Below are positions 3,801 to 54,550 of a stretch of 64,000 nucleotides of DNA, piece after piece; the first letter of the stretch is position 1; each line of letters opens with the position of its first letter. The DNA lies in contig NC_088788.1 in assembly GCF_949628265.1 (NCBI RefSeq), positions 32,226,335 through 32,290,334 of the forward strand, given 5' to 3'. Source of the stretch: Cloeon dipterum (taxonomy: Eukaryota > Arthropoda > Insecta > Ephemeroptera > Baetidae). Below the pieces are notes generated by a model that saw only the letters and a program-made list of their open reading frames with translations, was not told the DNA's origin and did not search any database. Made by a program: the position numbers and the translations under genes.

Positions 3801-4390
3801 ACCAAAGCAAACTGGCTTATTTCTTCCTTGGCATTTTGGTATTTTGTGAGAAAGCAGCGAGCCTGGTGTCTGGATACTCGCCAATGGGTTGAATCGCAGA
3901 TGGAAATTTGAAATATTTTTCAGCCGCTGCAATTCCTCTTTAGAGTTCTGTTTGTGAGGTCTTGAATGAACAAAAAGTTATCTTACTAAATTCATTTTTA
4001 ATGATTTTGCATACTAAGCAAATTTGAAAAATACAATAATTTTCCCAAAACTTTTACAGTGGCTGAAAGATGAAAAACTGCATCAATCAAGAGCCACTTT
4101 GCCAGCTTATTCTCAGTGAAAGAACCTACAGCGGTGTGCAAGTCACTGCTAGCTACTAATAATAATTGTAAGTAGAAATAAAGCAGAAACTGAGCGTCTC
4201 AGAGCTCGTACGCAAAGAGCCATGCAACAGCATGCAGCCAGGTAAGAGAGTAGTAGTGTCAGGATTGAAAACGACGAATCTTTGGATCATCCAGAGTTAT
4301 TAATGATCTTGGCGAAACAAACGGTTTTCACAACACAGTTGCAAAACAATCAAAGGTCAAGCTCTCGGTAAAATGAGTGAAGAGTTTTGC
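900..4390. other. 3.5 kb without a recognisable gene, between the METTL14 and PTEN 3' ends
   Basis: Short open frames occur on both strands here (up to 105 codons near 2177-2494). None resembles a known protein, and none has adjoining exons in compatible phase. The stretch is AT-rich, apart from slightly more GC-rich patches near 1800-1840 and 3480-3800. It could hold the rest of the PTEN 3'UTR, a last PTEN exon, or a non-coding RNA. I see no tRNA or rRNA. Confidence 0.5.
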
Positions 4391-4398
4391 AGTCTTTT

Positions 4399-7494
<3,096 letters not shown>

Positions 7495-29644: not shown

Positions 29645-29696
29645 ATGATCACCAGAATACTGCTTCTGCTGTTCTACGGCAGCGCTTTTGCCACAG
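29645..29696 (+). other. Signal-peptide exon of the LLTP
   Basis: MITRILLLLFYGSAFATG has a basic n-region, a hydrophobic core and small residues at the expected cleavage site, so the product enters the secretory pathway. The exon ends in phase 1 at a GTAAAT donor and is followed by a 1.4 kb intron in which I see nothing coding. Confidence 0.85.
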
Positions 29697-32600
29697 GTAA
29701 ATGAGAACATTTTTTTGCAAATTGTTGCTTCGTTATAATGAACAAAAAATACGCAGCCTTATTCTGAGATGAACCTGAAGTACCGAAAGTAAAGTCCTTT
29801 TTTAATTCAAAAAGAAAGAAAAAAGAATTGATCAGTCTAATTAGTGCGCCATATCAAAGATTTGTCATTGAAATACTGAAAAAAGCTTTCTTAAACGTGA
29901 TCATCAATGTCAAAAGATTGACCTTCACTCTCTATGATGAAAATATGAAATCGTATATCACTAAATCATACCAAATCTGTCATGAAATACGTTCAAAAAT
30001 TGTATTTTGCTTAGCTGGAAAGGTTAAATCATTTTTTTATGGACCGTAACGATTTAGTTACCCTTAAAAGCGTTTTTTCTCCAGTTGTAAATAATTTTGT
30101 TTGGTATTCACGGTTGATTTTCTCTCATAAAACCATTCAAGAGTTACTTAACTGGTAGTAGAAAGACTAATAAATGATGGGAATAGAAGAAAAATTAAAA
30201 TTTTCATATCATGCTAGATTAAAACATCCTTGGGATCAGTATGGAAAATAATATTGTGTAATTTTTAAATGATTTAGTTCCAAATGCAGAACATTGTATC
30301 GATATTGACTCTTGAAAGTGCAAAAGGTGGGTATAGAGATTTGATTACATTAAACGAGTATTGATTCGTAAAAAATTACTGCATTCACATATTACATGCA
30401 GCTGAAAATGTCCTGAGAAGGCTTACAGCATGGCTTCTCGTTAAGCAGAAATTTCTTTCACAATGGATCGGAGAGCAGCCTAATTGCCGGCCTCAAAAAG
30501 GGCTTTTGTACTTTCAAAGCTCGCGGTCAGCAAGAGTCGAGAGAGATCTTTACACTCCATGCGTAGTCAACAATTGTTAACGCAGCGTTTATTTATACCA
30601 AAGACTAAGAACAAATAACAACCATTGAGCAGTTAAATTTTCAGTTAAAAGCGGTTAAAGTGAGGAAACTCGTTTTGTAGGAGAAATGATTATTTTCAAG
30701 AGGTTTTAGAGAAACTAATATATTGTAACTTGAACATTTCACTATTTTCAATGAGAAAATTTAAAATTTTATTCATCAATACAACGAACCTAAACGAAAC
30801 AAGTATCCTAATACAGAAGGCCCAATATTAAATACTTGTAACGACAGTGTAACATAAAGAAAATTAAATTTTTACAGACAGTAAATGCAATAGAATTACA
30901 AATTGACGCAGGGAGTGTAAGAAAACTAAAAATTTTATTCCTAGACGCCCATCCTTAGTGAATTCTTTACAAAGTAGATAGAGCCATTGTGTAATTTCTT
31001 TGTTTTCATAAACAAAAAGCATCTATAATTTCCACGTAAAATATATCCCTGCCTTTCAAATAAATATATTCACCATCTTGCATTTGCAAAACACAATTAA
31101 AAATCTAAATTTCACGCCCATTTATCTAATTTCAGGAGATTCCTCGCCAGCAAAATGCGCTTCGTACTGCTTAGGTGAGATGATCAAGACCAATTTTCTA
31201 TTTTTTCCCTGATGTATTTTAAACTACTTGTTAATATCCAGATAACTCGCTCATATTTGAGAAAGATGCTACGTTAGAGTACTCATACTCTGGGTCAGTT
31301 GAAACGATCTTGACATCTCAAGAGACGCTAGACAAGGAGCGTGGTGAACCTCTCGAGCTCAACGCTACCGTGATCATTAGGACCGTATCGCCTTGTGAGA
31401 TTTCGCTTGAGGTCAGATTATCTATTTTTTGCCAATATCTGTGTTACATGAAACGAAAGTGTAAAATTAAAATGAAAAATAATTAACCGGATTTGTGTAA
31501 ATGAAATACATGTTTTCAGCTGAAAGATGTAAGGTCGTCCAGCGAGAACGAAGGTGCCTCCTTCGTCGACCTCCTGACCGGCAACCCCTTGAGAGCCTCC
31601 TTCCAGGACGGTCGCGTTGAGGCGGTCTGCGCGCCGTCGTCAGAGAACCGCTGGGCTCTAAACGTCAAAAAAGCCATTCTCAGTGCGTTCCAGATGCCCC
31701 TTGGAGTTCTTGACCAAGATGATTTGATTACGGTGCACGAGGTAATGTAAAATCTGGGCCAAATTCATGCATGAACCCGTTTATAGAGTTCGTGGCTCCT
31801 GTGCAGACAAACGTAGGCAGCCAGCGGCACTCGCGTGTCAAGCTGGTTGCATATCTCGCCTCCGCAGGCGCTTTTAAACTGTTATTCCAATTCCTTTTGC
31901 AGACTGACGTTTCTGGAGTGTGCAGAACGCAGTACAAAACTCTATCAAACGAGGAAAAGACGGTCGTGAGCAAGACGAAGGATTTGACGCAGTGCTCTGG
32001 TCGCAGGGGAAAAATCAACTTGGAATTGCCTTATGTTCAGAACTCAGCAGTTCATCTTTTGAAGTACGAACAAAATTGAGTAAGAAAAGGAGATGCTAAA
32101 ATTCATCTGAAATTATTTCAGAGGGCAACAAGAATGCGAGCAAACTCTCGCCGAAGGCCGTTTGTTGTCTTCCAAATGCAGAGAAACGCAGGCACTTGTT
32201 CCTTTTTCAGATAAAGATGGAGGTGAAAGCGTAAAGACGTTAGTCTCCCAGATCATTAATCTGGAGTCGGTCACTCGGGGTAAATTTCCAAAAATTAGCA
32301 AATTATCGTTTATAAAAATCATTTGATGAATTAGACGTTTCTGGCGTGGAACCACTTTCGTTAAACTTCAGCCGCTCGTCTCTGTTATTTGACTACGGAG
32401 AATACGATGAAAAACTAAGCCTGGAGGCTAAAACAAAGCCCGAGGACGCTCTCGTAGAGGTCAAAACGATTTTGCACGAGCTTTCCAGCGATGGCGGTGA
32501 ATCAGCAGTCGTAACAGCCGACACAGCAAAATTGTTTGGCACTCTTGTGCACGCCATGGCGAAGCTTGACGCAGATCATTTGAAACAAGTCGTTACCGAT

Positions 32601-35600
32601 GAGCGCTTGAGCGACGCAAAAAGGTTCGTTTTGCTTTTCCACTTGAAAAAGCATTGGCTAATTAATTTTACAATGCGACAACACTTAATTTAGTTAATTT
32701 TTATGAAATTCGATATTTTATGCATTTGTCTCTTGACCATAAATTTAAAATTAGTAAATTTGCTGCAAGTTCGAAGGAGAAATAGTATGCTAGTATTTCT
32801 AGTTGAAATAATTTTATGGAAAAAGGTCTTTTGCCTGTTCTTCCCTGACTATCTTATTTTATCGAATTAAATTGAGGAAAATTATAATTAAAGGGGATTT
32901 ATCATGGACGTTTTGCCAAGCCTTGACAGCCACGCAAGCATCGATCTGATGAGTTTTCTCTACATGGAGAGGGCGAAGCAGATTCCAAAAATTAAGTCAT
33001 GGATGGAGAACAACGCTGCTTCTTGGTTCGCCTCGCTGGCCTACTCGCGCAAGGTTGAAAGCGCGTCAATGAAGCCGCTGCAGGTTGGTGCCAGTTGTGC
33101 GTTTCCCCTTGCAAATTACTTGAAGATTACGAATTGCAGAAACTTTTGGTGTACTGTCTGATGGGATATGCGGCAGAGTCAGACGTTTCCAGCATTGTCT
33201 TGGGAATTACCGGCCTGGCTCGAAAGTACTGCGAAAACTCAGGAGACATGGACTCGTGTGGATCGCACGCTTTTGAAATTCTCTCTACCTTGGAGCAAGT
33301 TTTGATGCCAGATTCGCAAGCGAGCGAGAAAATCAGAATTGTTGCACTAAAAGGTTTAGGAAACATCGGCGCTTTTACAAATGGTCGAATTTTAAGGAAC
33401 AAAATATTGGTAAATATAAAACTTTTTTTATAAAAATTTCGCAACTGTCTTTTTCTTTTCAAGAACGAATCTCTCAGCATCGAGGAACGTTTGGTTGCAA
33501 TCGATTCGTTTCGTCGCGTCTCCTGCCCAACGTTGGACACCTGGATTACCTCCACGTTCCTGAATACCTTCACAGACACAAGCCAAGACACGGAAATACG
33601 AATCGCAGCGTACCTCATGACCATTCGGTGCCCAACGCCAGCCATTGTGCGTGCAATTAAACGGTCCCTCTACTCGGAGACAGTAAACCAAGGTCAGATA
33701 TTAAGTTTATAATTTTTATTATTTTTGCACGAGAAGAGAGTATTTTAATGTAGTCGATTTCATAAATTAATTTTTTAAACTTGTTTTAGTCGGCTCTTTT
33801 GTTTGGACGCATTTGACCAATGGCCAAGAATCGACAGCAAAAGGGCGGCAAGTTTTGAGGAGCATTCTTGCCAACGAATTCCTGCAAAATAAGTTCAAAA
33901 CTGACGCACGCCAGTTTTCCCGCAATTATGAAGGTTCCCAATACTTCCAGTCGCTCGGAATAGGAACCAACCTGGACGCTAACCTGATTTTCTCGACAAA
34001 GTGAGCAATTTTATTCCCATTCATTCACGCTGCAAAATCTAGCCGCAGAGTAAAGCTTGCAAAAGAAAACGATATAAAAACATGTACCCTGATATTTAAA
34101 ATTTAATTAAAAAAGACGTCTTTTAGTGTCCTTAAATTTATTTTTTATATTTTAAGTGACATCATCCCTTACAATTAGGAGATAAATAGGTTATTAAAAT
34201 TGCAATTTCAGGTCATACTTGCCGCGCTCGGCGATGATGAACCTGACAGTGGACGTGTTCGGCGAGTCCATCAACCTGTTTGAGGTAGGCGGTCGGGCTG
34301 AAGGCTTTGAACCCATGGTCGAGCGCCTCTTCGCCAAAAACGGGGCGTTCGAGAACGAAGCTCTCGAGGGGTTCCTGAAGAACGCGCGCCAGGACGAACA
34401 GTATGAAAGCGTGCGCAACAAGACTGTGCCGATGAAGCGGAGCACCAAACCCAGGGCAAGCGGCTTCCTCAGGGTCAACGGCCAGGAAGTCAGTTACTTG
34501 GAGCTTGAGGACGTGGTGAAGAACGCCTACAGGTTCAATTTCCAGCCGAAAGAGTTGCTGCGGAACCTGCTGAGCAAGAAGGAAGTCGATTTGCAGCAGT
34601 CGGCCGAGCTGCTCAACCTTGAAAGGGAGTTTCCCACGCTGATGGGGCTGCCACTCAGATTGAAACTCGCCGGCACGTCCAGCGTGACGCTCAAGCTCAG
34701 CGCCAGCTTTGAACGCAAGAACGCGGCCTTCCAGATGTCTGCGATGGTCAAGCCGAGCGCCAGTGTGCTCTTGACGGGAACAATGTCCGTCGGACAGGAC
34801 GGCTTTGAGCAGGGTGTCCGAATCGAGGCGTCACTTTTCACCAAGACCAGCGTGGACAACCGACTGAGCGTGACGGAGGATGGAAAGGTCAGCTTCAAGG
34901 CCCACGTGCCTGAGGAGAAGCAGACCCTGATCGACCTGCGGACGGAAAGACTCACTTTCAATGGACACTCGGTGCGCAGACTCGGCGATTTGTCCGACGC
35001 ACGCGACAACTCGAGTTTCTGCAGCGGCGAGTGGGTGGACGGGCTGTCAGGGCTGCGGTTCTGCTCCGACCTGAGCTTCCCGAACGCGACCCTGGAGGGT
35101 GGGGTGTTCCCCTTCAACGGCAACTCCCGCTTGCTGGTCACCCTGGAGAAAAGTGACCCCGACTTTGAGGCTTACGAGTTTCACTCGTCGTGGACGCATA
35201 TGCCTGGCCGCAAGTACGACTACAGCCTCGTTTTCGACCGCGTGGGCTCCGAGCAACGCAACAAGCGCCGCGCTGTAATCCTAGTCTTCGACAGAGACGC
35301 TGGAGTGGCGTCTGCCGAGCTAGACGTCCCAGAAAAACAGGCAGCAATATCTATTCTCTGGGACAACACGGACTTTTCAGCTGGGGAATTGGCCATTTCT
35401 TATGACAGAGTTAATTACGTGGACATTGTGGCCAAAATCGACCATCAGAAGAAAACCATGTTTGGTACTAACGAGCAGTTTGGAAAAATCGAGCCAGAAA
35501 TCAAGTTCAAGGTGAAGCGTTTGCCAGAGTTCCACCTAAAAGGAACGATCAACTACTCTGGAAAGTCAAAGGTAAAATTCGAAATATCTTTTCACGAGTG

Positions 35601-38600
35601 CTATAAATTGTTTTTTTGCAGTTGACTGCCGATTTGAATGTTTCGGGCCTGACCGAAAAGCCGATAATTTTGGCGATCGACTACAACACCGAGGCAAATT
35701 TTGGAGGCATCAATGCGAGGATAAACGTCGACTCTCAGTACATAACATGGGACGTGAAAGCCAATGCGAAAGTTTCTCCCAGCTCGCTCGGACTGAGGTT
35801 GAACGGAGTTTACAATGCGACCGCAGAGAAACAGCATACCTTTGAAATAATAACCAAGTGCAATTGGAATCAGCAAGGTGCCCTGAAAAGGGGTTTTCTA
35901 AATTTGAAGAGCAACGTAAGTTAAAATATTTAAGAGTGACACGACGTTTAAAGCAATTTTTTATCGACAGCTGTCACAGTGGCCTCAGTACAGCGGCCAG
36001 CTGCAGACAGACGTCATGCTGAGCAAAGGTTACTACGAGAGCAACGTCAAACTCTCTTTGACTAACGAGGAGTGGAACATCACGCAGAGACTCCAAGTAT
36101 CTGGCCCAGTTGACGTTTGGCTCAAACAAACTGTTCAATGCCCACAAAGACAAATCAACTTCCTCCTGGAGCACAGACACAAAGTAAGTTGGCGGATGTG
36201 AGTTTTTGGAAGCAAAATGGATGATATTTGAGCAGTTCGGGGATCTAATACTGGCTGCCAAACGTCAGAGATGGCAAAAGGTGGTTAGTTTCGAAATGCT
36301 CAAATAAAAAAAGGTTCAAAAGCAATATTCTATCGAAAAAATCGAAAAGTTACTAACTGATATGCCTTATAATTATTGAAAGTTGATTCGAGTTGTTTTA
36401 TTTGTTAGTTAAAATTATTTTTCACCGGTCTACAAATCGTAAAATAATATTTCTCGCACGCACTTTAAAATACAATCGGGTCACCAGATCAATTCGATAA
36501 ATATAGCAAATCTCAGCCTGCAAAAATTAAAAAAAAATATTTTACACAAACTAAAATATTTTAAGTCGTATCTCTGTCTAAAAAACTACTATTTGGATTG
36601 CCTACGCTGGGAAATTAAAATATAAAGATTAAAATTATATTTATTAAAAAATTTTGCGTATTATACGTAGGAGTGATTTTTTAACATCAAATGTCCTTAA
36701 CGTTTTTTTCACCAGGAAATCAGACAATTGTTGAAAACAAAATTTTCCTTGTGTCATGCCCTTAATATGCATTACAACCCAAGATCCCTTAAAAAACTCC
36801 GTGACCCGTGACGCATTTAATTTTTAATTTAATGTATGCAAAATGCACTCTGAGATTTATAATACATTTTTTAGGCAGGACAAATTTCCTCTGAGCTTTT
36901 GCCGAGAATGTTCTCAACCACGACCCAGCTGAACGTGGATGAAAAGCATCGGGCGAACTTCCACCTGGACTACAAGTACATTGAAGGTGACGGCATCACC
37001 TTCTCTGCAGAGTCCGAGTTGCTGTGGCCGAGGTTCACGTTTTCAAACGGCACGGGGCCGCACCTGCAGTCGCGCGTCCGGCAGGTTTTGCCAGGCGAGT
37101 ATGACGTGTTTTTCATCACGCAGTGGACGGATAAGCGACCACCGGTCAAAATCAACGCCGTTTACAAGGACAAAGGGAACCAGAAAAAATTGAACCACTT
37201 TTTGAACGGCACCTTGGCCGGCGTCTTCGGCTTCACCGAGCTCTCTGCACTTGGAGTGCAAGCCAAATTCCAAGCCGTCAGCCACACGTCAAATTTTGAA
37301 GGCCGAGTCACTGTCGGTGCAAGCGAAAAGTGCGAGTTTGCGGTGCTATACGAACATGACAAACTCGAGAAAAAAAGCGTCGCAGCAAAAATGAACGTCT
37401 GGCGCGATGAGGGTGTCAAAAAGGAATACCAATTGAATGGGACTTTTCAAAAGTCCGAGGAAGAACTTCTCCTCTCCTTTGACGTGCTCATGAGTCGGCT
37501 CATCTCCTTTGAATTTAGGGTGCGAAAAAATGTCTCACTCCTTTGAAATATAATGCATTTACCATTTTTTAGAATGGAGGGGAAAGTGATTTCATCTCTC
37601 TTTTCTGGGACAAGGCAAACGACGCAAATAAAAACATTACCCTTTTGATCGAACATCCTAGGACAAACGAGATCTCCGTCAATCTGCTCTTTCCAGGGCA
37701 GAATATTTTTGTCAGCGGGAATCTCCGATATCTAACAGCGACTAGCAAAAGCGACAGTAACGTACACTTGAGGTAATTTTCAATAATCGCAGTGTATTTT
37801 TTATTTCAATTAAATAGATAAGTTATTAAAAATATGGCCCTCTTTACAATCTTAAATTCCGCAGAAAAAATATTAAACTTAAAATTATTATAATAAGAAA
37901 AAATGAAATTTTTTCAAAAAATTAACATCCACATGAATTTCAGTGGTCACGCAGTAAGTGGAAGAGTTGCTTGGTCTCCAGGAAGAGAAATTTCTTTCGC
38001 TGGAAGCTACAAGGGCAACTTGAACTTAGGTTTGGAAGTTTTGGTCGAGGTCAGCACAAAAAATCTGCCTGTGGTTGGTTCACATTCGCGCAAACTAGAG
38101 GGAGAGTTTACTCCGGGAAAGAGCGAGAGAGGCGGAAGATTAATTATCAAGCATGCTTGGCGGACCAACGGGCAAAAGCCGGAAAATCTGGAGGCGCAAA
38201 TTCTGATCGAAAAGGACCAGGAAAATCTGAATATTGAATTCTCGTTCCTCTCTAGCCTTTGGCATCCAAAAAGTGTGACGGTAAGGAGCAATTAAACTAA
38301 GTAAAACTAAGGCAATTTAAATATTTCACCAGCAATTAAATTGTTGAATATTTTTTAGATTTCCGTTTTCAATTTTTTCTCACGACATTTAAAAAATCAT
38401 TCTACTGCTCTATTTTTAGGGAAGAGTAAACAACAACTTTAAGGACTGGACCGCTATCAGAGGAAATGTGAGCACGCACTGCGGAGAAGAGGGCGTCTCT
38501 TTTGCTTGGGACTGGAACTTGACAAACGGTGCATCAGTAGCAGTGCAGAGCAATTGGGAGAAAATTTCTTCCACTAAATTTGAGGTCAAATACAACGTTC

Positions 38601-41600
38601 CATCTGAAAGTCACCAAGGAGTTTTGCAAAATTGGATTTTGCTTCAAATGAAGGACAATATTTGGAAGATGAATGTCAACGTGAAAAAGGAAAAGACTTT
38701 CACCACTGGAGATTACGGTAGTAAAGATTTGATTATAGCTTGCCACCTAAATTTATTTTCTCCTGTAATGTTGCAGTGTTTGAATTGAGAGTGGAAACAC
38801 CGATGAAAGATTTTGAAAACCATTTGATTTCGGCCAAGCTGAACAGGAACAACAATGACGTTGACTTTACAAGCATAATTCTAACTCCTCTGATTGGCGA
38901 TTACGCGTTGAACTTGTCTAACCGGCACATAGTCGAAACAAACAAACTAAAGGCCAAGTTAACAGTTTCTAATCAGGGCGACTCAGTCACAGATTTGAGA
39001 TTAACCGCGACGCATATTCCTATCAGCCAGGGCGTGGAAGCAGAGATCTCTCTTTACATGCCTGACATTTTAGAAATTAAAAGCGAAGTCACGGTTGTTG
39101 TCCGAGAAGACGGCGCCGACGCCAAAGTGAACTATTTCAGCAACGACGAACTGTTGCACGACTTTAAGCTCGGCCTAGAGTACGAGAATGAAGGCGACTG
39201 GGACAAACTTAGTGTCGATTTTTCAGGCTACAGCTACATGGTAATGCCCTCGCGGTGGAAACTCGTCGTCAAGCTCGAAGGCACAAACCTTAATCACACC
39301 GGTTACCTCGAGGTCAACAAACTAATTCTAGAACACAAGTTCGAGTTCAACGAGAATGAAAGTAGCTGTGCCTTTGACCTGAAAGGAGTGGCGGATCAAA
39401 AGGAAATTCTGAACGTCGGCATACTGTACGAGGATGTACTGGACGGCAAGTATTTCTTAACCGTGATGGGGACGCAGGTTTTCGACGTACAATGCCAAGT
39501 CAACCTGGGCTACGTTAACATGATGTTCATGAACAAAGCTCTGCAGATCTTGACACGGGTTTCAGACGAAAACGAGATGGAAACTAACACCAGAATTATA
39601 GCCAGTGGAAAACTGTACGCGACTGTGAAAACTAGCGTCTACTTGCGGTTCAAAGACGACGAAGGCGGGGTAGAGTCAGCAATAATTAGCCTGGACGTCG
39701 TGTCAGAAAAAAATAGTGCCAACGTCCAGGTAAACTTGGATGCTTGGCGCCGACTGGTCACGAACGTGAAAGGTAAATACGAAGATCACAAGGCTGAGCT
39801 GGAGCTCGACGTGCTCTCCACGAACAACACGCTTAGTTTCAAGTACTGGAAGGTAGATGACGTAATTTTTTATTCGGACGCGTATGTGTACTTCGAGATT
39901 CCGGCAGCCGCAGTCGGCGTGGTAATCCACGAGGGACCATTCAAGTTAAGGGCGGAAGCTGAAGGCGCCGTTGACGAGGACATGGTCGTTTACGCCGTTG
40001 CCCAAGTGGACTCGGACGACTCTATTTACTTCCCTATGTCGGTGAAGGCGCAGTGGCAACTGCCGCAAGACGATCCTATCAAGACTGGAGGGAGAGTGAT
40101 ATTCACAGCTCCAGGCAACTTAAATATCAAGTTTTCCGGCCACCTTGACTACACGGACGCAAACAAGTACCTGAATGCAACCCTCCTCCAAACTATGGGC
40201 GAAGGCGAACATTATGAAGCGCACACCTATGAAGTGCTTGCGTCGCATAAAACCTTTGAGAAGCAGTATTTGTTTGCGCGGTACCGTTACGACGAAGAGA
40301 AAGTGGAGGTCGAGGTTATGCTGACGGAAATGATGCTGGAAACGAAGCTGATAACGCCGATTCAGAACTACAAGTACGTCAGCCTGAAGGCGGGCGTGGC
40401 GGAAAGGTCGGAGACGGAAAGGCAAATTCTTGAATTCGTCCGAGACGAATACATTATGAATGCCGAACTTTTATTCAAGAAGAACAAAATGATTGGCTCC
40501 GCAAAATCCAACAACGGATTCGAGTTGGAATCTTCCATGACCAAGATCGAAACTGAAGCGTCAACTGATGTGGCCATTGAAGTGGTGTTAAACAAAATTA
40601 GCCGAGTCGAGGCCGGAGTATACATGCAGTATGGACAAGGAGTCATGGATGTTGCAGCAAACGTAAGAATATTCTCGAGTATTAAAAAAACTTGGTTGTT
40701 TCGTGTGCACCAATTTTTATAACCATTGCGCTCATGAAAGTCACCCAGGAAATTTCAATAGAAGGCGTTGATTATTGAAAATACTTAACGTATTGTGCTT
40801 GTGTTGTCACAAAACAATGCTGTCTTGCATTAAATTTTTAACAATTAGGCTCGTTAATATGTATTTAAATCATTTAGAGCTATCACGAGGGACTATATAA
40901 ATAATTATAAAAATGCTGCTAAACCTACAGTATTATTTATTTTCAATTTTTTACGTCGGAAGTTTAAAAGAGTCATTGATTGATATACGCGAATAAAATG
41001 TTATAGATTTGAAAGAAGTTATGCAACCTGTTCGTAAGATATGCTTGGCGGCGCAGTGTTTCTCCTTCGAAGGCGCTTAAACGCACAATTGGCGGAGCAT
41101 TGTGATGTAAAGCGGAGATCATACATTGTTTATATTTGACTAGCTTTGCATTTTTAGATGCAACCATAGCAAGATGTTTTTATTATCCAATGGTTATATA
41201 GAAGTTGCTAAAATACATAAAGCAAATTTTTAATGTCGTGCTAGTTTTTTACTATCAAGGGGAAACTTTAGAGCTTTTAAAAATTGTAAAAGGTCCTCAT
41301 GGCTATAAACCTTATAAAATCTTGATTATTCTAATTTCAGGTGACCAGAAACGGAGAAACCCACAGGATGCAGTCAGTGATAATGAACACATCGGACAAA
41401 AAACGGTTTGGTATAAAAACTGAATACATGAAGAAGCGTTATGAAATGGAAATATATTCAACAAGGGCGAACGAAGGAAATTACAGTCAGGGTTTTAGAT
41501 TAGCTACTCAAGGGTTGGCATCAGAGTTTCACTACGAGAAAACAGAACAGAGTTCCGCAGCCATCTTCAAGTATCAAGAGCAGTACCTGAAATGTCAGCT

Positions 41601-44600: not shown

Positions 44601-47600
44601 GATCGCGTCCATCAAATCCACCTGGTTTAGTTACGTGAAAATTTCAGCGATTTCAGACAGCAAGACAAATGAATTAGGGGGTGCTCTCCAAATTGAAGAC
44701 TCCGCTTATTCGATGAAGGCTAGCCAAGTGGTGGGGAACACTTACGACATCAAACTCTATGACGGTCAGGAGGAAAAATACAACATTCAGGTCACGTTTG
44801 AAGGCGAATATCGTTCAGGGTTGAAAGTGGCATTGAAAAGCACAACGCCAGGGTACAAATTCACTACAGACGCTGCAATAACGGCAAATGAAGAAATGCT
44901 GCACGTTTCGAGCTCAATTTCATGGGGTGATGGAGAAACAGTCTATTTTTCACTGAAGAATTCTGTTAACACGGAAATCGAGTGCGTCTTGAATACGGAA
45001 AACGTCAAAGACAGCGAAGTCTACCTATCTTTTGGGTCAAATTTCATAACTGCGATGATGAGAAATCAAAGCGAAACCTACAAAGGAGGCTTAAAGTTCG
45101 AACTTGGCGAATTTTACTCGATCAACGGAACGTACGAAATCAGCGGCAAAAATTACGAGGTCCTTACTTACTATGATCCCAATGAAATTAAACTCCACGT
45201 AGCATATGCTTGGCCGCGCGACAAAAGAATAGAGACTGTGATTGTGTTGAAGCCCGGAGACGTGTCAATGACTCTGAAAACGCCATACATTCAATACCAC
45301 AACATACAAATCAACGGTAAATACTCTGAGCATATGACCTACAATGACTACCAATTAGCAAGTACGGCTGACGCCAAGTGGAACGACTTCCTTGTGACCG
45401 TTTCTGGTGTGATCAAAAGCTCGCAGAATAACTATGGCTTGGACGGTCGGCTTGTTTGGGACAGTACTAATGAAATGAGACTGAAGTTTGGAGTAATTGC
45501 TAGCAAGCAGGTCAATTTCGAATTGAAAACACCATTCAGAGGGTTGCCCTATTTCTCAGCACAATTGGAAGCATTAAAATATCGGCACCTTGTTTCTGGA
45601 ATAAGCGGAGTTTTGAGAACACCTTTTGAAAAACTCCCAGTCCTGAATTTCACCTTCAACACGGTGAATGAGGAGATCGAAATGAAATTTTCGTTTGATA
45701 CGGCTACTTACAAGAACGTCTCCATTCATACCATCCTGAAGAGTAAAAATGGAAAATATCTGCATATGCAAATCCACGCGCCATTCTTCAGCCACGTCAA
45801 ACATCTCATTGTGAACGCGCGTACGAGCAAATTGATTGGAAAAAATGGACAGGAAACAATGATTTCACTGCATCTTGATGAGAAAGAGTACAGTATTCAC
45901 AACAATTACACTCTATTGAAGAGGAGGCTTGACAGTTACGTGTTCATGAAAGGTCCAAATATTGAGCCAATCGTCATCAGATTTGGAGGCCAATTCGAAA
46001 TGGAATCCATGGAGAGCTTTGATTTGGAAACCTATTTCAACGATATTCTGCTCGGATTCCAGTACAAGTCGGACAAAGATTTGCTATTGCGTGGACGAAT
46101 TTGCCTATCAACGATAATTCCCATTCCCAACACTGATTTCACTCTCAATCTCGTCCGCAGCAGTCACTTTGAAGGAAGGTTCGATTATAGCTATGGAGAT
46201 TTTACTGGTAACGCCCTAGTGAAGAACAAGCTACAAAAAGACTCTCTGGAAACCGTGTTGTACCTAAATCTGCCTCACATCCTCAAATACCCTCTTCAGG
46301 TCGAACTGACTGCAAATTACAACCAACCAAGATTGCAATTCAACGGATTTGCAAGTTTCATGGCTGAGCACCGACTGGAGCTCGTTATGGTGCAAACGTC
46401 GTTCAGGACGACGCTCAACGCCGAATTGGACAGCGCCTTTTTCAAGGGCAAGAACAAATTCGAGCTTACTTTGAGCGGTGGGTCTCTCAGCGTATCCATC
46501 AATGACGAAATAAAAATTACCGGTATGAAGAAAACGAACCAGCTCATGCTCACCCTGAGTCAAGTGTCTTCAAGACAGGATCACACGCTGACTTACAATT
46601 GGGATCTTTCGCAACCACCAACCTTTGACGTTACCCTGGAGTCCCCAGTCTTGGCATCCAAAAAAGCAACCTTTTCGGCTACGTACCTGGGCGCCTTCAA
46701 GGGCGTGAACATCAAACTTGTGTCTGGGTCGGAATCAATGAAACTGGATTACGATGTGGTAAACCAGACACACTCAAAGGGCCTGAGACTTGTGGTTGGC
46801 AACTCGCAAACACAGCTGTTGAATCTTGCAGCTTACTTGGATCAAACCAATAACGGACACAAGCTTCTAGCAGAACTGAATTTGTTTGAAATAGACTACA
46901 AAGCTGTCTTTGAATATTCTTTGCCGGTCCAAAGCGCGAATCCAAATTTGGAAGTCAACTTTTTCCTAAGTTTGCCGTATCTCTTCCCATTCAGGCTTCT
47001 GGATTTGAATGTAAAGACTGGAAAAGATGCCGAGGAATACTTCATCAATTCCAATATTGCCATAGACAACGACAAAGTCAACTTGAACGGAAAATTGGTC
47101 AGTAATCAACTGAGCATCGATATCTCGTCAACTTTTGAAGAAATGAGGTCATTGTCACTGGAAGGCTCGTTCGCGGAGAAAGGAGAACAGCAGAGTGTGA
47201 ACGCATTGCTAGTAGTGAACGGCTTGGAGTTTCTCAAAACTAACATCTCGGTGATCCGATTGCTAAATGGTGTGATTCTGCAAGTGGAGTCTAGCTCTAA
47301 AATCAAGCACTTTGAACACATTTTCCTTAAGTTGTCAATTCCATCAGAGCAGCGGTTCAGCCTGACTGCACAGTTTGAGCTGAGAGGAACAACACACTTT
47401 GACGCTCACTTGTCTCTGTCATGCAAACCTGGATACACGAATATGGAAATGAAAGTTACTGGCCTGACAGTTAATATGTACCTGACAACAAACCAAGGCT
47501 TTTTTGGATACAAAACTCCAAGTGATGAATACAGCATCAGGATTTATTCAAAATCATCTGGCCACCAGTTAGACAGCGAAGTGACAGTAAACAGCGGAAA

Positions 47601-50600
47601 AGTTCAGCTCTTTAAAACTGGTCTCTTTGGAATGTACTACAACCACACCGACTTTTACATTTTGATGAGCACGAATTGCATCTACGAGACACTGCCGGAT
47701 ACAGTCCTCTCATTCAGCGCCACCAAGTCCGAAATCAAATTTGGAACCGAATTCGACTACAAGATTGGAGACAAGCGGTCCTATTCTGTAATAATAAATC
47801 ACTTCATGGAAAGCGCTACAAACTTTGACATTGGTTTAACGTTTGAGAGCAATGACAAGGAAACATTCGTCACCAAGATTACGCACGTTCTGAAAGAAGA
47901 TTTGTACATAGCCCTGGCGCAGGTGAATAAAGACATCGTCAAAATAACCAAAATAAACCAGAACAACGCGATTTTGGTGACAGGAACAATTATCTGCGCA
48001 GATTTCGCGAGCGACCTAAGTGGAAAACTGTTGAATGAGATCAGCAGCAAAGGCGTTGACCTGAAAATCACATGGGATGGAGACCTGTACCAAGCTGGCG
48101 GTAGCTACAATTACAGTGACGGCGAATTCATGCAGGCAAAGTTTAACCTAAACTCCCCACAAACTGGTCAGTATATCGGTCAGTTAGAATATTCAGACAC
48201 ATCCAACCTGCACGTTTTGTTTGATCGCGACCAATCGCCCATTCTCCTGGTTGAATTATCCAGTCAAAAAATGCGTACTATGTACATTTTGCTGAACACG
48301 ACATCGACAAAATTCATGCTGAGTGAATACCAAAGCAGCAATTACTCTTACGAGCTCTTGACCAGTGTATACTACGATGAGAAGACGATTCAAATGCAAT
48401 ACGACTATGACACATTCCCTGAGAGTCCAGATTCTTACAGAATGAACGCTACGATTGTCACGCCTATCAGGTCAGTTGGAGTGAGCAGCGAACAATTCAT
48501 TAGTGAGACGTACAACCTGAGTCAGTCGTATGTATCGTGGGAGACTCTGGACAAACGAGTTGGCTATAAGTTTGAAATTACACAAGATGACGTGAAAACA
48601 AATCTGAAAACGTCTGTTGAAATCCCACACCGAACCATCGACCTGAACACTCACTACAAGTTGAAGAAAGTCGCCGAGCTTACTAACCTAGAATGCGGAA
48701 TTCAATTTAACTGGAACTCTAAGTTACGTCTCATTCCGGTCACGTTCGTGACAAACGTTACGCTGGACCACGCGCAAGAAGTGGCTTACCATTACACGGT
48801 GCTAACACATCCCTCATTCAACAGCAGCTTCATGATCAACGGCAGGATGACAAAGCCAAATCCATACGAAAACTTCTTCAACGTAGAAATGGGATCTGTG
48901 GAAAACGGAATAATGAGTCCAGTTCTCAGGATCAATTCGAATGCTACTCGCAAAGCTCTGTCAAGTCTCTACCAAATTATTCTTGAACATCCAAAGACAG
49001 GAATACAACAGCAGTGGGAGCTTAATGTTTCCTACGACCGTGGTCTTGCTGCGAAACTGTCGCTGCAGCGTGGAGGAGAAAACCGCGGCTTCAGCTCAGT
49101 CAGCTTTGCATATAACAGCGCAGGAAAGAAAATAGAAGTCGGGCTAACTCACAATGAACTGACGGCTGACGCAATGGGACTATTAACTATGGACAAACAG
49201 AACAAAAGGTAGATAACAAATTTAACTTATAATGCATTGAAGCAAATTGTGTGGATTTTAGATATAAAAGAATTTCATAAAATAATTATTACAGAGGAAA
49301 TTATTTTTTTAAATTTATAATTCTTTTTAACATTAAAAATTGTCTTGAGATTAGTTTCCCATTTTTTATTCAGGTATATATAAATTTTGTTCAGGTTTGG
49401 AGTGCACGCTTCAGCTTCTTTTGATGAATTCATGCCACCAATAATGTTCACGACTGTCGTGGAAAAACCGGAGACAAGCAGTTTCATTTTAACATCAGAA
49501 ATTAATTTGGCACTGCAGAGAGCATATTTTGGAGAGGCAAGTATTAATTTAGTTGCTTGTATTGTTTTATAATTTAAAATCGTAGGCTAAGTGGACACCC
49601 AATCATGTATCAGCACAATTGAGCACGCACGAGTACGATGAAACTCGCACCGCTTTGCAAGCAGCCGTTACCCTGAACACGACCAACACCCTTTCGTTTG
49701 CAGCTAAATACAAGTCTTCCATTTGGGCAAATCTGACGCAGGATCTTTTGGGATCATTTGAGCACGGAAAAATCATTGTCAAACAAATTTCTCGTGGACT
49801 TTGCGACACTACCAAAGAGGAAGTGTTTGCACGGTAACTCCTTGCACGGATTATCTTAGGATTCGACGTTTTAAGTTTTGGGGTATTTATTGAAAACGTC
49901 TAGTTTTCAACGAGTTAAGAGATATCCTAAGGGGAAAAAGTTTGATTGGATGCCGTTTGCGTATGAAGTAGCTCTGAAGGTAAAAATAGTTATGGGATTT
50001 AACATGGGAAATCATTAATTTTTTTTTTAATTTATGAGCTCCATTTTCGTCACTCCACCGCTGTACGTGGTTTACATAAGAAAAGACTACACGAATTCAA
50101 TGGTTTCACCAAAAACTAAAACGTCGAAACCAAGAATTTCCTATTGTTAGATTCGGTTTCTCAAAACAAAAACTTACGCATATTTTTAATAATAGATATG
50201 CGTCGATCATAAAATCAGGAGCCGTGAAAAATGTGTATCACACGATCGTGGAACACACGACTTCTGAAATTAACAGCGTTCGTCAAGACTTGGCTAGTTT
50301 CCGGCAGCAAGTTCTGCAGATTTACAAGAGAGACGATTTCTACGTGAAAACGATTACTGAATACTTCATCAAAGCTTTGTAAGATTTTACCATCTGAGGA
50401 CCAGAACAAAAACTTTATGTTTCAATATGCAGCTCTAACAGTCGGCAGGCCTCTTCGCACGCTCTGGCCAAAGTGAAGCAAGCCTTCTTAGACTTCTTCA
50501 CGGAAACGATGCCTAATTTCTACGCAGTCATGTACAAAAACAGCTTTGAACCAATCGTATCTGCTTGCCAAAAATTCAGTCCAACATTCGCAAAGTCTCT

Positions 50601-53600
50601 CAGAAAAGTTTCTTCTATTTGGAATGAAATTTACAGCGGCGGTTCATCAGTTTTGAGGTAGGAATCAATTTTCTACTGAGTATAATGTCACTTAATTAAT
50701 CCACGAGTGCATTTCTCAGAACCTCCGTGTCATACATGCAAGAGGGAGTGAAAAGAATATCCAAGCACACGAGCGAAAATATGGCTTCTGTCTCAAACTG
50801 GGCTGTCGAAACCAAGGAATGGGTCACCACAGACTATTTGGAGCCTGGAAAAAGAGACTTGCTGGCAGCGGCGAATGCTTTGGAGACGTTTTTGAAGGAA
50901 ATGAATGGTTTGAAAATTTTAACTTTGTAGAAACGCTTTAAAGTGTGAAACATTTTAGCATTTTTTGTTTCCCTGCCAAGAGAGATCGAAATTTATCTGC
51001 TGTCGCTAGAGGAGGTCCAAGAAGGAATGCAAATTTACAAGCAATACGCCGCCTGGCTGGAAGAATTCAAGGTTGCTAGATTGGTTGCCGAGTTTAAAAA
51101 GGAGTTTGATAAGTAAGGGTTAATTTTCCTAACTAGAAATAATACTATATAATATTAATTCCATTTTAGCCTTACCGAACGTTTCTTGGAGGACTTGAAA
51201 GAATATTTAGGGGAGCACGCCATGATTGTGACGAAGGTCATTAAAGCGATAAAAGGATCTTACGACGAATTCATGCAAATGCCGTCGGTTGTTTACCTGA
51301 GAATGATTTACTCGAAAGTCAAGGCCAAGGTAACAATGAAGATATAAAAAGATTTGACTCGCAATATGAACCATCCCTTTTTCAGGCCGAGTTCATTTGG
51401 GAAGCGTGGGAAATGAAAATGTTCCTACAAGAGCTGGTGATTCGCACAGCCAATGAAGCGCTCGCGTTCATCAACAAAATCAGCTCATCAAGCGACGACT
51501 ATCGGAAGGGCGTTCTGCTCGAGGATGAGGAATACAATCTCAGATACGAGCCGGAAAATGGCGAGCTCTCGGGCAGCATCACCTTACCCGTAACTTGGAA
51601 GAGTTTTGACCAGTTGCCCACCTTGCCTGAGGACACAAACGAGAAGTTCCACAACCTCCGTTTCTCCTTAATGGACAAGGCGTACGAAGCGACCAACCTT
51701 GAAAATCTGCAAGACGCAATCTGGCGCACATTGCTGCCGCCTTTCAGATCTAACGCGCTCATCACAGTCAACGGCCACGTCATCACCTTCGACGGCAATC
51801 ATTACAAGGTCAAGAACGTATTTTGTGGAAGCTATCTCCTCGCTGCTGACTATATGGACAATACGTATGTTTTTTTGTTCAAAAGCAGACTTTTGATTAC
51901 GGTTAAATTGCACCCAAAACAGATTTGCTATCGTGGCAAGCTACGGCTCTGAAACGGAAAAGAAAGCGGGCCAGCTGTCGTCCTTAACCCTCTACACGCA
52001 CAACGGAAACAAGGTCACCATTGAGATGACACAGGTCTCAACAAGGACAGACGTGGATGGCCTGAGCAAGATTTTCATCAACGGCTCAACGGTAAAAAAA
52101 TCGAGCTAAATTTGTGTTATAAATTAAATCATGAGCTACACTTCCTTATTGAGCGAATATATGCAACCGGTGCGTCGCGTGTGATTAACAAATTGTATAA
52201 CTCCGCAGCAGGTGGAGCTCCCCCTCGTCGTCGACGACTTCGAGCTGACGCGACAGGGCCCCAAGGTGGTTGCCCTGAACGAACGAGGCGTCGGCCTACA
52301 CTGCAACATCGTCAACGGCATCTGCTCACTTGATCTGAGCGGCTGGTATCACGGAAAAGTGGCAGGGATCATGGGCTCCTTCGACAAAGAGCAGAGAAAC
52401 GACTTTGCCAAGCCGGACGGTCGCGTATTAGACTCGGTCGTCGAATTCCTTGAGGAGTGGAAGGTCTGACTGTGTCTCTTTACTTAATAAATCAACCGAA
52501 GGCTTCCTAATTTCAGGTGAGCGGATCGACTGATTGTGAAATGCCGAAGAAAGTGAAGACAAACAACAATGACGCCGGCGCTGCTGTTTGCGCTCAGCTC
52601 TTTTCAAAGTCATCGTCGGTGCTGCAGCCATGCTTCGCGCGACTCGACCCTGAACCCTTCCGCATCATGTGCGAGCAGGACGCGACGGACGGCGTCGCCA
52701 GCGATAAGGGACCCGACTGCCTCGCAGCCGAAGCGTATGTCGAACAGTGTCGATTCGTCGGCATGGATGTATCCCTACCTGCACACTGCTGTGAGTGATA
52801 TAAATATTTGTGAAAATTCAATAAATATCAAAACTAACTATTTAGCACGGTGTCGTCTTCCGGGCCGAAGCATCGCTGCAGGCGACGTAATAAGTTTCGA
52901 CAGTAGTCCAGGGTCTAGAGCGCCTCCGCCACCACAGATCGCGGATTTTGTGTTCTTGCTCGAACAAGGAAGCAACCAAAACTGCCTGCAAGGGCCCCAC
53001 CTTGTTGACCTTCCTGCAAAGATCGACTCGGTTCTACGTTCAACCCTGGGCATCAATAGCACCAAATTCGCGCTCGCCTCTTTTGGCGCAGGCAAGCCGC
53101 TCACCATTCACACCATTGAGGGCAACATCTGGAGCGGGCGACGCGGTGTCCAGAATGTTATGAGCAGGTAAAATAAAATCGCCGCAAATAATTTCGTGAT
53201 TTAAAAAGCAAATTGAACTAAAATATGTTGTAAGGGATGTTGGCGGTGTTGCATCAAATTAATCGAATCTTCATTTTGGGGACTAATTTTAAATAGAAAA
53301 AGAGAAATTAAAAGTTATTAGTTTTTAAGCTACTGCTACGTTAGTCACATTAACTGCTAAAATACCAAAACTACAGACACAAACACAAATTGTTTATAGT
53401 TTGGAGCTACCAAAGAGCGAATTGGCGGCAGATAACAAAGACCTGCGGCAGGCATTGTTCGCCGCGGCCTCCAAACTGCACTACCGACCTGGCGCCTCGA
53501 AAAATTTGATTCTGGTGCCGTGCACGTCATGTGGCAGGTCAGAAAAAACGGCTGACATATTCTCTGAAGCCTCAAGCGGACTTGTTTTTACTGATATTAA

Positions 53601-54550
53601 AATGCACGTGCTGCAGCGGGACGAAATGATGTTTAAACGCACCATCACTAAGGTTATTTCTTATCCATGAGCAGAGTGAACTTGTTTTTCCTGAGCTAAA
53701 TGATAAAAACAACTTTCAGAAAACGAGACGTGGCAAAGTGAACCCTGTGATGGGCCTGGACAGGCACGGCGCATACACGGGCAGGAGACACAAGGGCACA
53801 TCGCTTCCGCTCGCGAGCAAAGCCATTTTCCGCCAGCTTTCCCTGCCAAAGGTACGGAAATTCAATCGCTTCTAGAAAACAGATTTAACGCGCGGTATCG
53901 CAGGACTTGTGCACGCCGCTGGTCATGGAGACGAACGGAACTCTGTTCTCTGCGTCGAGCTTGTTTGAAAGAGGTGCCAGCGACGAGAAACGAAAGTGGC
54001 TGGACGTTTGGTCGCGAAGGGTGGCTAGCTCGGCCAGACCGACCGCCTGCCAGGTCAGTTGCGTCGTGTATTTCCCCTATGTTAAGTAAAATTAATTGAC
54101 CCTTCCGACAGGCGTGCGACTGCATTCCTTTGCCCGATGGAGTGTCGAGGCTGTCGTGTACCTCGTGTCTGATGCCAGAAATCGAAATTTTCTTGGATGT
54201 GAGTAAAACTTTCAAAAGAATGCGGATTTGAATGCTTGGCAGAATTTTTTATTGACTAATATAACAGCTCTGAAGCATGTTGTACTAATTTTGTATCTTT
54301 AGACTTAAAAACTATTAAGAATATATTCATCAAGCTAATTTTATTACAACCGTAACTACAATCAAACTCATTTTGTACAAATTAGGACTGGGAACGCGCT
54401 TTGGATGAGTCCATGCAAGAGGTTTTGGACGAGGACTACGGCTCAGTTGAGGTCGAACTGCCTGACTTAAGAACCAGCGATATCGAGGCTCTCAAGAACA
54501 TACGGGGCACATTGTATCCAGGCAACACATTTAGTTCTGACGTAGTTTAA
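29645..54550 (+). CDS. Giant LLTP-family lipoprotein (apolipophorin/apoLTP-like), about 6,231 residues
   Basis: LLTPs are secreted apoB-like proteins that carry lipid in haemolymph. The model has 38 exons whose summed length, 18,696 nt, is divisible by 3. Exons: 29645-29696, 31136-31174, 31242-31411, 31520-31741, 31903-32063, 32122-32279, 32335-32623, 32894-33083, 33140-33409, 33464-33692, 33790-34000, 34212-35571, 35622-35915, 35971-36183, 36236-36280, 36875-37519, 37573-37772, 37944-38280, 38420-38717, 38777-40662, 41341-49208, 49395-49536, 49586-49833, 50196-50378, 50433-50657, 50720-50907, 50983-51112, 51170-51329, 51386-51864, 51923-52091, 52212-52463, 52517-52790, 52846-53167, 53400-53652, 53720-53851, 53904-54053, 54112-54198, 54386-54550. 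Domain order: signal peptide, LPD_N module, beta-rich region, helices, VWD, C8, vWA-like domain, tail. Apolipophorin is about 3,300 residues, so the lipid-transfer-particle protein Apoltp is the closer fit, but orthology is not settled. The ATG sits in CACCATGA, and a signal peptide follows. Confidence 0.88.
31136..36280 (+). other. LLTP N-terminal lipid-transport module (LPD_N/vitellogenin-N and following beta sheets)
   Basis: Residues about 18-1300. The beta-barrel opens with CASYCLDNSLIFEKDATLEY and SYSGSVETILT. The family-typical DVSGVCRTQYKTLSN and KTKDLTQCSGR give the conserved cysteines. The alpha-helical horseshoe spans the exons at 32335-34000 (LFGTLVHAMAKLDADHLKQ, FLYMERAKQIPKIKSWMENN, RIVALKGLGNIGAF, AYLMTIRCPTPAIVRAIK). 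The large exon 34212-35571 begins the lipid-cavity beta sheets (LPRSAMMNLTVDVFGESINLF). This order matches the lipovitellin-like fold of apolipophorin, MTP and apoB. Confidence 0.85.
38777..49208 (+). other. LLTP beta-rich repeat region, mostly in one 7,868-nt exon
   Basis: Residues about 1795-5045 come from two exons (38777-40662 and 41341-49208), separated by a 678-nt intron with no visible content. The protein is almost wholly predicted amphipathic beta strand with very few cysteines. A short motif of the form T/S/L-P-(F/I/Y/V)-x-x-(Y/F)-x-x-hydrophobic recurs, for example TPFERFNNLTF, TPFKGYESMSL, LPSYENIALI, TPIVGYSTVDL, TPYIQYHNIQI, TPFRGLPYFSAQL, APFFSHVKHLIV, LPYLFPFRLLDLNV and SPQTGQYIGQL. 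This is the expected nature of an apoB-type lipid belt. Confidence 0.8.
49537..49585 (+). other. GC-AG intron in the LLTP gene
   Basis: Only a GC donor (GAG|GCAAGT) at 49537 keeps the frame across this 49-nt intron, giving ...AYFGE|AKWTPNHVSA. The nearest GT donor, at 49541, would create an in-frame stop right after the acceptor. The rest of the donor matches U1 well, as is typical of GC-AG introns. Confidence 0.75.
50196..51600 (+). other. LLTP alpha-helical region before the VWD domain
   Basis: Seven short exons encode about 350 residues that change abruptly from beta to helix: VYHTIVEHTTSEINSVRQDL, QAFLDFFTETMPNFYAVMY, YAAWLEEFKVARLVAEFKKE and RFLEDLKEYLGEH. Charged and hydrophobic residues alternate in helical periodicity, like exchangeable-apolipoprotein lipid-binding helices. 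The change in exon size marks it as a separate structural unit. Its function is inferred. Confidence 0.65.
51740..52790 (+). other. LLTP VWD and C8 domains
   Basis: The VWD starts at SNALITVNGHVITFDGNHYK, continues through VKNVFCGSYLLAADYMDN, and ends with GWYHGKVAGIMGSFDKEQRN and DFAKPDG, the usual VWD calcium-site region. The CGLC disulfide-isomerase-like motif of VWF is absent (VAGIMGSFD), as in other LLTPs. Exon 52517-52790 then gives a C8-type pattern: VCAQLFSKSSSVLQPCFARL, FRIMCEQDA, PDCLAAEAYVEQC and PAHC. The VWD is standard for this family; C8 is more typical of mucins and VWF. Confidence 0.75.
52846..54550 (+). other. LLTP C-terminal vWA-like domain and Cys-containing tail
   Basis: Exons 52846-53167 and 53400-53652 read IADFVFLLEQGSNQNCLQ, AKIDSVLRSTLGINSTKFAL, ASFGAGKPLTIHTIEGNI, DLRQALFAAASKLHYRPGAS and KNLILVPCTSC. 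This follows the strand/helix order of a von Willebrand A domain, but the DxSxS metal site is replaced (LEQGS), so metal binding is doubtful. The last exons add a basic stretch (KKTRRGKVNPV, GRRHKGTS), a short Cys cluster (ACDCIPLPDG, LSCTSC) and an acidic end (EDYGSVEVELPDL). The vWA call is from pattern recognition only. Confidence 0.5.

Follow-up and report, generated by a model that had tools for sequence, protein, structure and literature searches.

A single gene of about 6.2 thousand codons for a large lipid transfer protein (LLTP), longer than apoB-100, is the best reading of positions 29645 to 54550 (+ strand) of a 64,000-nucleotide stretch of the Cloeon dipterum genome (the window; contig NC_088788.1, positions 32,226,335 to 32,290,334 of the forward strand). 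The predicted protein is very probably a secreted member of the APO family, that of apoB, apolipophorin, and apoLTP. This assignment is supported by a gene model that stays in frame, by coding statistics, by Pfam domains in the order of LLTPs, by an N-terminal part closer to apoB than to lipovitellin, and by amphipathic beta and helical patterns. The kind of protein, an apoB-family lipid carrier, is known; its length is unusual.

Gene model and coding evidence

The gene was rebuilt by splice-aware dynamic programming and then corrected by hand. The resulting model runs from the ATG at 29645 to the TAA at 54550 and contains 37 exons, with a coding sequence of 18,603 nt corresponding to 6,200 residues and a single terminal stop (about 699 kDa). 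All 36 introns have GT-AG boundaries, their median length is 67 nt, and a check of in-frame retention found none that can be read through. The original prediction had placed a single lipoprotein gene on the + strand at 29645-54550, and the independent model has identical ends. The internal figures of that prediction (38 exons, 18,696 nt, 6,231 codons) differ slightly, the two coding sequences being 93 nt apart, a difference in length of 0.5%.

The open frame of exon 20 (41341..49208, + strand) goes beyond chance. This exon of 7,868 nt, within the beta region described below, contains 2,622 codons without a stop, while 100 base shuffles never exceeded 150. Other long + strand frames also emerge when the window is read from stop to stop, including 34198-35625 and 38725-40722 besides 41335-49212. 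The other 36 exons were scored with a coding model for which exon 20 was the sole coding training set, contrasted with flanking non-coding DNA. It gives a score above 0 in 32 of them and prefers the modelled frame in 34. Exons 1, 2, 9, and 36 score between -1.3 and -2.1, and the modelled frame is not preferred in exons 2 and 36. The weakly scoring exon 9 falls within the Pfam match of the LPD_N domain.

Automatic models differ in their details, and every one of them ends at 54550. With the ATG fixed at 29645 and the scoring trained on the curated model, the optimum has 37 exons and 18,600 nt; with the same scoring and a free start, it has 38 exons, 18,708 nt, and 6,235 codons, starting at 29450. 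Before training on the curated model, the fixed ATG gave 36 exons and 17,904 nt or, with a stronger intron penalty, 34 exons and 17,778 nt, with exon pieces missing in both cases. The first crude run with a free start gave 46 exons and 18,441 nt from 29450, including micro-exons. The micro-exons (3-37 nt, in intron 1 and elsewhere) were dropped because direct joining preserves the phase, and the stronger intron penalties were rejected because coding sequence of LPD_N was lost. The upstream start at 29450 was discarded solely because it adds residues ahead of the signal-like peptide. Exons 33140-33409 and 33464-33692, the exon starts at 37944, 50196, and 52846, and the exon end at 52790 were restored by reading the sequence. 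Since the automatic models differ and some exons are weak, the exact length of the protein is uncertain by some tens of residues.

The exons, all on the + strand, lie at 29645-29696, 31136-31174, 31242-31411, 31520-31741, 31903-32063, 32122-32279, 32335-32623, and 32894-33083 (exons 1-8); 33140-33409, 33464-33692, 33790-34000, 34212-35571, 35622-35915, 35971-36183, 36875-37519, and 37573-37772 (exons 9-16); 37944-38280, 38420-38717, 38777-40662, 41341-49208, 49395-49540, 49614-49833, 50196-50378, and 50433-50657 (exons 17-24); 50720-50907, 51010-51112, 51170-51329, 51386-51864, 51923-52091, 52209-52463, 52517-52790, and 52846-53167 (exons 25-32); and 53400-53652, 53720-53851, 53904-54053, 54112-54198, and 54386-54550 (exons 33-37). 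Exon 1 (29645..29696) carries the start codon and a probable signal peptide, MITRILLLLFYGSAFAT, a hydrophobic N-terminus recognized by eye only. The mature protein would begin in exon 2 (31136..31174), the shortest exon, which has a weak coding score and encodes two cysteines.

Domain order and amphipathic regions

The N-terminal part carries the lipid-transfer module of LLTPs. Vitellogenin_N, or LPD_N, is found at 31256..33815 (+ strand, residues 36-602, exons 3-11) with an E value of 1.6e-62 for PF01347. The match reaches 212.4 bits and covers profile positions 1-589 of 590, which places the protein in the LLTP superfamily. It is followed by Vit_open_b-sht (DUF1943) at 33912..34932 (+ strand, residues 635-904, exons 11-12; PF09172, E 1.8e-58) and by a DUF1081-like stretch at 35044..35337 (+ strand, residues 942-1039), which contains the motif RNKR at residue 1013 and matches PF06448 below threshold. 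DUF1081 is described as specific to the APO family, at residues 957-1072 of apoB (PMC1783640). Toward the C-terminus, a VWD domain lies at 51767..52421 (+ strand, residues 5567-5726, exons 28-30; PF00094, E 2.7e-14) and a C8 domain at 52589..52771 (+ strand, residues 5765-5825, exon 31; PF08742). The C8 match reaches 27.2 bits, versus a cut-off of 23.7, when its stretch is scanned alone, and 21.7 bits, below the cut-off, in a longer piece. The domain order is therefore signal peptide (by eye), Vitellogenin_N, Vit_open_b-sht, sub-threshold DUF1081, VWD, and C8.

Among solved structures, the nearest to the N-terminal 1,117 residues are apoB-100 (E 5.4e-34, 120.6 bits) and then lipovitellin (E 1.1e-24, 89.8 bits). 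The only other PDB chains at E up to 1 are two 14-3-3 sequences, read as chance, and no MTP chain is listed within that limit. Residues 5031-5845 match FCGBP (E 1.3e-28), vWF, and mucins through their VWD-C8 assemblies.

A long amphipathic beta cluster after the lipid-transfer module is a trait of the APO family. Such a cluster is found here downstream of the module, at 34933..49206 (+ strand, residues 905-5030, that is 4,126 residues, exons 12-20). Its beta moment, expressed as a z score against 200 residue shuffles, is 5.2 for residues 905-1500, 6.8 for 1501-2408, 7.9 for 2409-3720, and 8.5 for 3721-5030. Elsewhere the score is lower (2.1 in the open beta-sheet, 2.0 in the VWD-C8 stretch) or not raised (0.0 in LPD_N, 0.7 for residues 5031-5152, -2.3 in the helical cluster, and -1.8 in the tail). 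The amphipathic helical cluster, with an alpha-moment z score of 8.0, occupies 49832..51388 (+ strand, residues 5153-5440, 288 residues, essentially exons 23-27). A match of this cluster to Phage_int_SAM_5 (22.4 bits, cut-off 22.3) was read as chance coil similarity. Exons 15 and 19, the ones scanned with Pfam among exons 13-19, have nothing above cut-off. The protein thus opens with the lipid-transfer module, continues with a single long beta cluster and a single helical cluster, and ends with VWD-C8 and a tail.

These results agree with the landmarks listed in the original prediction, the Pfam matches bearing out LPD_N and VWD and inspection by eye the signal peptide. They also support its placing of the extra length in the central beta region, through the amphipathic pattern of residues 905-5030, evidence that comes from hydrophobicity statistics rather than from aligning shorter relatives.

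The C-terminal tail, defined by the gene model, is cysteine-bearing and spans 52872..54550 (+ strand, residues 5841-6200, exons 32-37). Its last 177 residues have no Pfam match. A degenerate vWA domain seen by eye at 52929-53652 (+ strand, residues 5860-6023) has no Pfam support and no counterpart in the PDB at E up to 10, and is kept as a lead only.

Alternatives and family placement

A length far above the published lengths of relatives could raise the suspicion of an assembly artefact, in which a duplicated haplotype or a chimeric joining would have inflated the gene. However, comparison of the protein with itself gives no off-diagonal match at E up to 10, so the length does not come from a recent duplication. 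Moreover, the three tandem arrays detected in the window all fall outside the gene, a single unbroken frame crosses the 7.9-kb exon, and the beta pattern is similar in both halves of exon 20. We give such an artefact hardly any credence. A vitellogenin-type LLTP (vitellogenin, clotting protein, or Cv-d) in place of an APO protein is also very improbable. The combination of LPD_N, DUF1943, and VWD is that of vitellogenin (PMC10799875), all three are present, and the lipovitellin match is continuous across residues 109-862, whereas that of apoB comes in three pieces. Nevertheless, apoB outscores lipovitellin for the N-terminal part, and vitellogenins, which have no DUF1081, generally count about 1,600-1,800 residues (PMC1783640). 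The protein studied here has 6,200 residues, about 4,100 of them with an amphipathic beta pattern, and a DUF1081-like stretch, albeit sub-threshold.

Whether the span could hold two adjacent genes was examined by scoring. With the number of genes left free, a single gene scores best under each of the start penalties 4, 8, and 12. In a constrained test, the start was fixed and a second ATG was allowed in one range at a time, over seven consecutive ranges that cover 34.0 to 54.4 kb. The two-gene models then cost 11.6, 9.4, 5.9, 12.2, 3.8, 3.3, and 8.9 log units, one gene beating all seven by 3.3-12.2. A split within the N-terminal domain costs about 2 log units; it would divide one continuous Pfam match to LPD_N, which counts against it. 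The arrangement most worth considering is an APO protein ending at about 49.8-50.9 kb followed by a separate helical/VWD-C8 protein, as with LsLp1 and LsLp2 of the salmon louse, an LPD_N protein of 1,714 residues and a VWD-only protein of 2,153 residues that are described as products of separate genes 16 kb apart (PMC8545670). The cheapest splits, at 49837/49950 and 50930/51027, indeed cost just 3.8 and 3.3 log units, the second gene would take over VWD-C8 and either the whole or a part of the helical cluster, and intron 25 has a weak donor (score 1.5). However, the intergenic gap would be merely 112 or 96 nt, and introns 22 and 25 are GT-AG introns that keep the frame and allow no read-through. 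In addition, the second proteins would begin with MPFAYEVALK or MQIYKQYAAW and have no evident signal peptide, which sits badly with VWD-C8, an extracellular module. A split near 49.8-51.0 kb is therefore unlikely, and an arrangement of the louse type improbable. We infer a single transcript for the whole span, in keeping with the earlier view that the locus is not obviously two genes, by modest margins of score.

Comparison with known systems concerns length, domains, and cleavage sites. Vertebrate apoB-100 is alike in its N-terminal lipid-transfer module, the position of DUF1081, and its long lipid-binding region, and it is the best solved match of the N-terminal part. It counts 4,563 residues in PDB chain 9bd1_A, so that the 6,200 residues of the Cloeon dipterum protein make it about 1.36 times as long, as the original prediction had anticipated in calling it larger than apoB-100. 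In apoB, two beta clusters enclose a helical one (alpha-2), whereas the beta cluster of Cloeon dipterum has no helical break. The alpha-beta-alpha plan of the Cloeon dipterum protein is shared by insect apolipophorin, in which the beta cluster is much shorter. apoLTP, another insect LLTP, carries a VWD domain. In the apoLTP literature consulted, VWD is named in a figure legend that covers several proteins. apoB is given as devoid of VWD (PMC8545670), a domain that the Cloeon dipterum protein has.

Insect apolipophorin II/I has, in the order seen here, the large lipid transfer module, DUF1081 (a sub-threshold match in the present protein), and VWD. It has about 3,300 residues and, in common with apolipocrustacein, an R-X-K/R-R cleavage site near residue 725, which aligns with residues 725-728 of the shrimp protein (PMC1783640). 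The Cloeon dipterum protein has the C-terminal VWD (PF00094), is nearly twice as long, and has no cleavage site there. Insect apoLTP is similar as an apoB-homologous LLTP that has a vitellogenin-N domain and exceeds apolipophorin in length (PMC3406001). In Drosophila, a C-terminal tag placed after Ser4333 indicates about 4,333 residues (PMC4486166), and two closely spaced furin sequences follow vitellogenin-N (PMC3406001, PMC4486166). No such pair was found in Cloeon dipterum, where RNKR at 1013 stands alone, well past the end of LPD_N (residue 602), and the next site is at 3701. Decapod dLp/HDL-BGBP is also a very long LLTP with LPD_N and DUF1943, having in the mud crab 4,831 residues and furin sites at 2,990 and 4,096 (PMC8416765); crayfish BGBP-dLp is described without VWD (PMC8545670). 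The present protein departs from this pattern by its VWD and by having R-X-K/R-R sites only at 1013 and 3701. With BgApo1 of Biomphalaria (3,607 residues; PMC10799875) included, it exceeds the published LLTP lengths compared (4,831, about 4,333, 3,607, and about 3,300 residues), a statement based on a few lengths from papers and the PDB. Among the literature matches listed, no longer LLTP was recognized, which is not proof of absence.

Several results weigh against the reading as one APO-family gene with the limits given here. At the 5' end, start 29450 scores 5.2 above start 29645 in the free runs, and the scoring model was trained on the curated gene model itself. The two-gene margins are modest, smallest near 49.8-51.0 kb; exactly two genes, unconstrained, cost 0.3 through an 18-nt mini-gene upstream, and three forced genes cost 2.4, with a cut at 32697/32904 inside LPD_N. 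The limits of the beta and helical regions were set after viewing a 200-residue profile. Exon 20 has no PDB match at E up to 1 and no Pfam match above cut-off, and neither half of the C-terminal tail matches Pfam. PF06448, at the expected position, reaches 20.3 bits, or 22.3 bits (E 1.9e-4) with exon 12 alone, for a cut-off of 25. Finally, R-X-K/R-R is absent near residue 725, the only sites in the whole protein being RNKR at 1013 and RDKR at 3701, and composition alone predicts about one.

Because DUF1081 is in place but sub-threshold, the site near 725 is missing, and the patterns of decapod dLp/HDL-BGBP and of Drosophila apoLTP do not fit, the protein is assigned to the APO family without a subfamily. 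We have a slight preference only for an apoLTP-like role. A tentative idea, which we consider rather doubtful, is that the protein represents an undescribed giant APO subclass, one whose beta belt runs unbroken over about 4,100 residues, which is not cut by furin behind the lipid-transfer module, and which ends in VWD-C8 and a cysteine-bearing tail.

Possible role and genomic surroundings

As an APO-family protein, the product is best read as a secreted lipoprotein scaffold. Coding status, domain order, beta and helix patterns, and N-terminal closeness to apoB were obtained here; lipidation and circulation are taken from family biology. By this analogy, the N-terminal module would take up lipid in the endoplasmic reticulum with the help of MTP, and the amphipathic beta strands would then form a belt around the lipid core as it grows. 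The particle would be secreted and circulate in the body fluid, serving either for bulk transport or as a lipid transfer particle. A longer belt might scaffold a larger or more extended particle than that of apolipophorin. The lipid load of an apoB-type particle is generally considered to be influenced by how long its amphipathic beta belt is. A belt model has been described for apoB-100 (PMC12419007), and in Drosophila, circulating Lpp and LTP fall strongly when MTP is knocked down (PMC3406001).

A homologue that naturally reaches about 1.36 times the length of apoB-100, with one helical cluster and a VWD-C8 end, would offer a comparison point for the belt-length idea. If it does represent a giant APO subclass, it could scaffold an outsized or elongated particle, and the question whether belt length determines particle size could be put to a natural example. 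If close relatives are equally long, this would simply be the normal length of the lineage. Automated annotation may split such long genes.

Searches of other collections, which hold hardly any animal DNA, gave no relatives of residues 1-764 in viral contigs, of exon 12 in bacterial and archaeal genome contigs, or, in plasmids, of the opening 2,000 bases of exon 20. No second LLTP domain was found at E up to 0.001 in the flanking frames scanned whole, namely the three + frames of 54.6-64 kb and the three - frames of 1-29.6 kb. Rfam gave nothing in the window.

The surroundings contain several other genes. On the - strand, upstream of the lipoprotein gene, a PTEN-like gene lies at about 5.6-6.6 kb, with PTEN_C2 in frame 5584-5976 and the phosphatase domain in 6237-6614. 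An AAA ATPase gene follows in pieces on the same strand (AAA at about 10.0-10.2 and 9.5-9.7 kb, AAA lid at about 9.3-9.4 kb). The 13.9-20.3 kb stretch contains, also on the - strand, a CDP-alcohol phosphatidyltransferase domain near 14.0 kb and an APD1-4-type E3 ligase at 17.8-20.3 kb, whose N-terminal and middle domains are at about 20.2 and 17.8-18.1 kb. The + strand downstream of the lipoprotein gene carries a NOP56/NOP58-type gene at about 56.75-58.4 kb, with NOP5NT below and Nop above cut-off; no relatives of it were found in the viral contigs, a collection with the same scarcity of animal DNA. The gene of exocyst Sec5, with VPS51_Exo84_N and Sec5 domains, lies on the + strand at about 60.2-60.8 kb.

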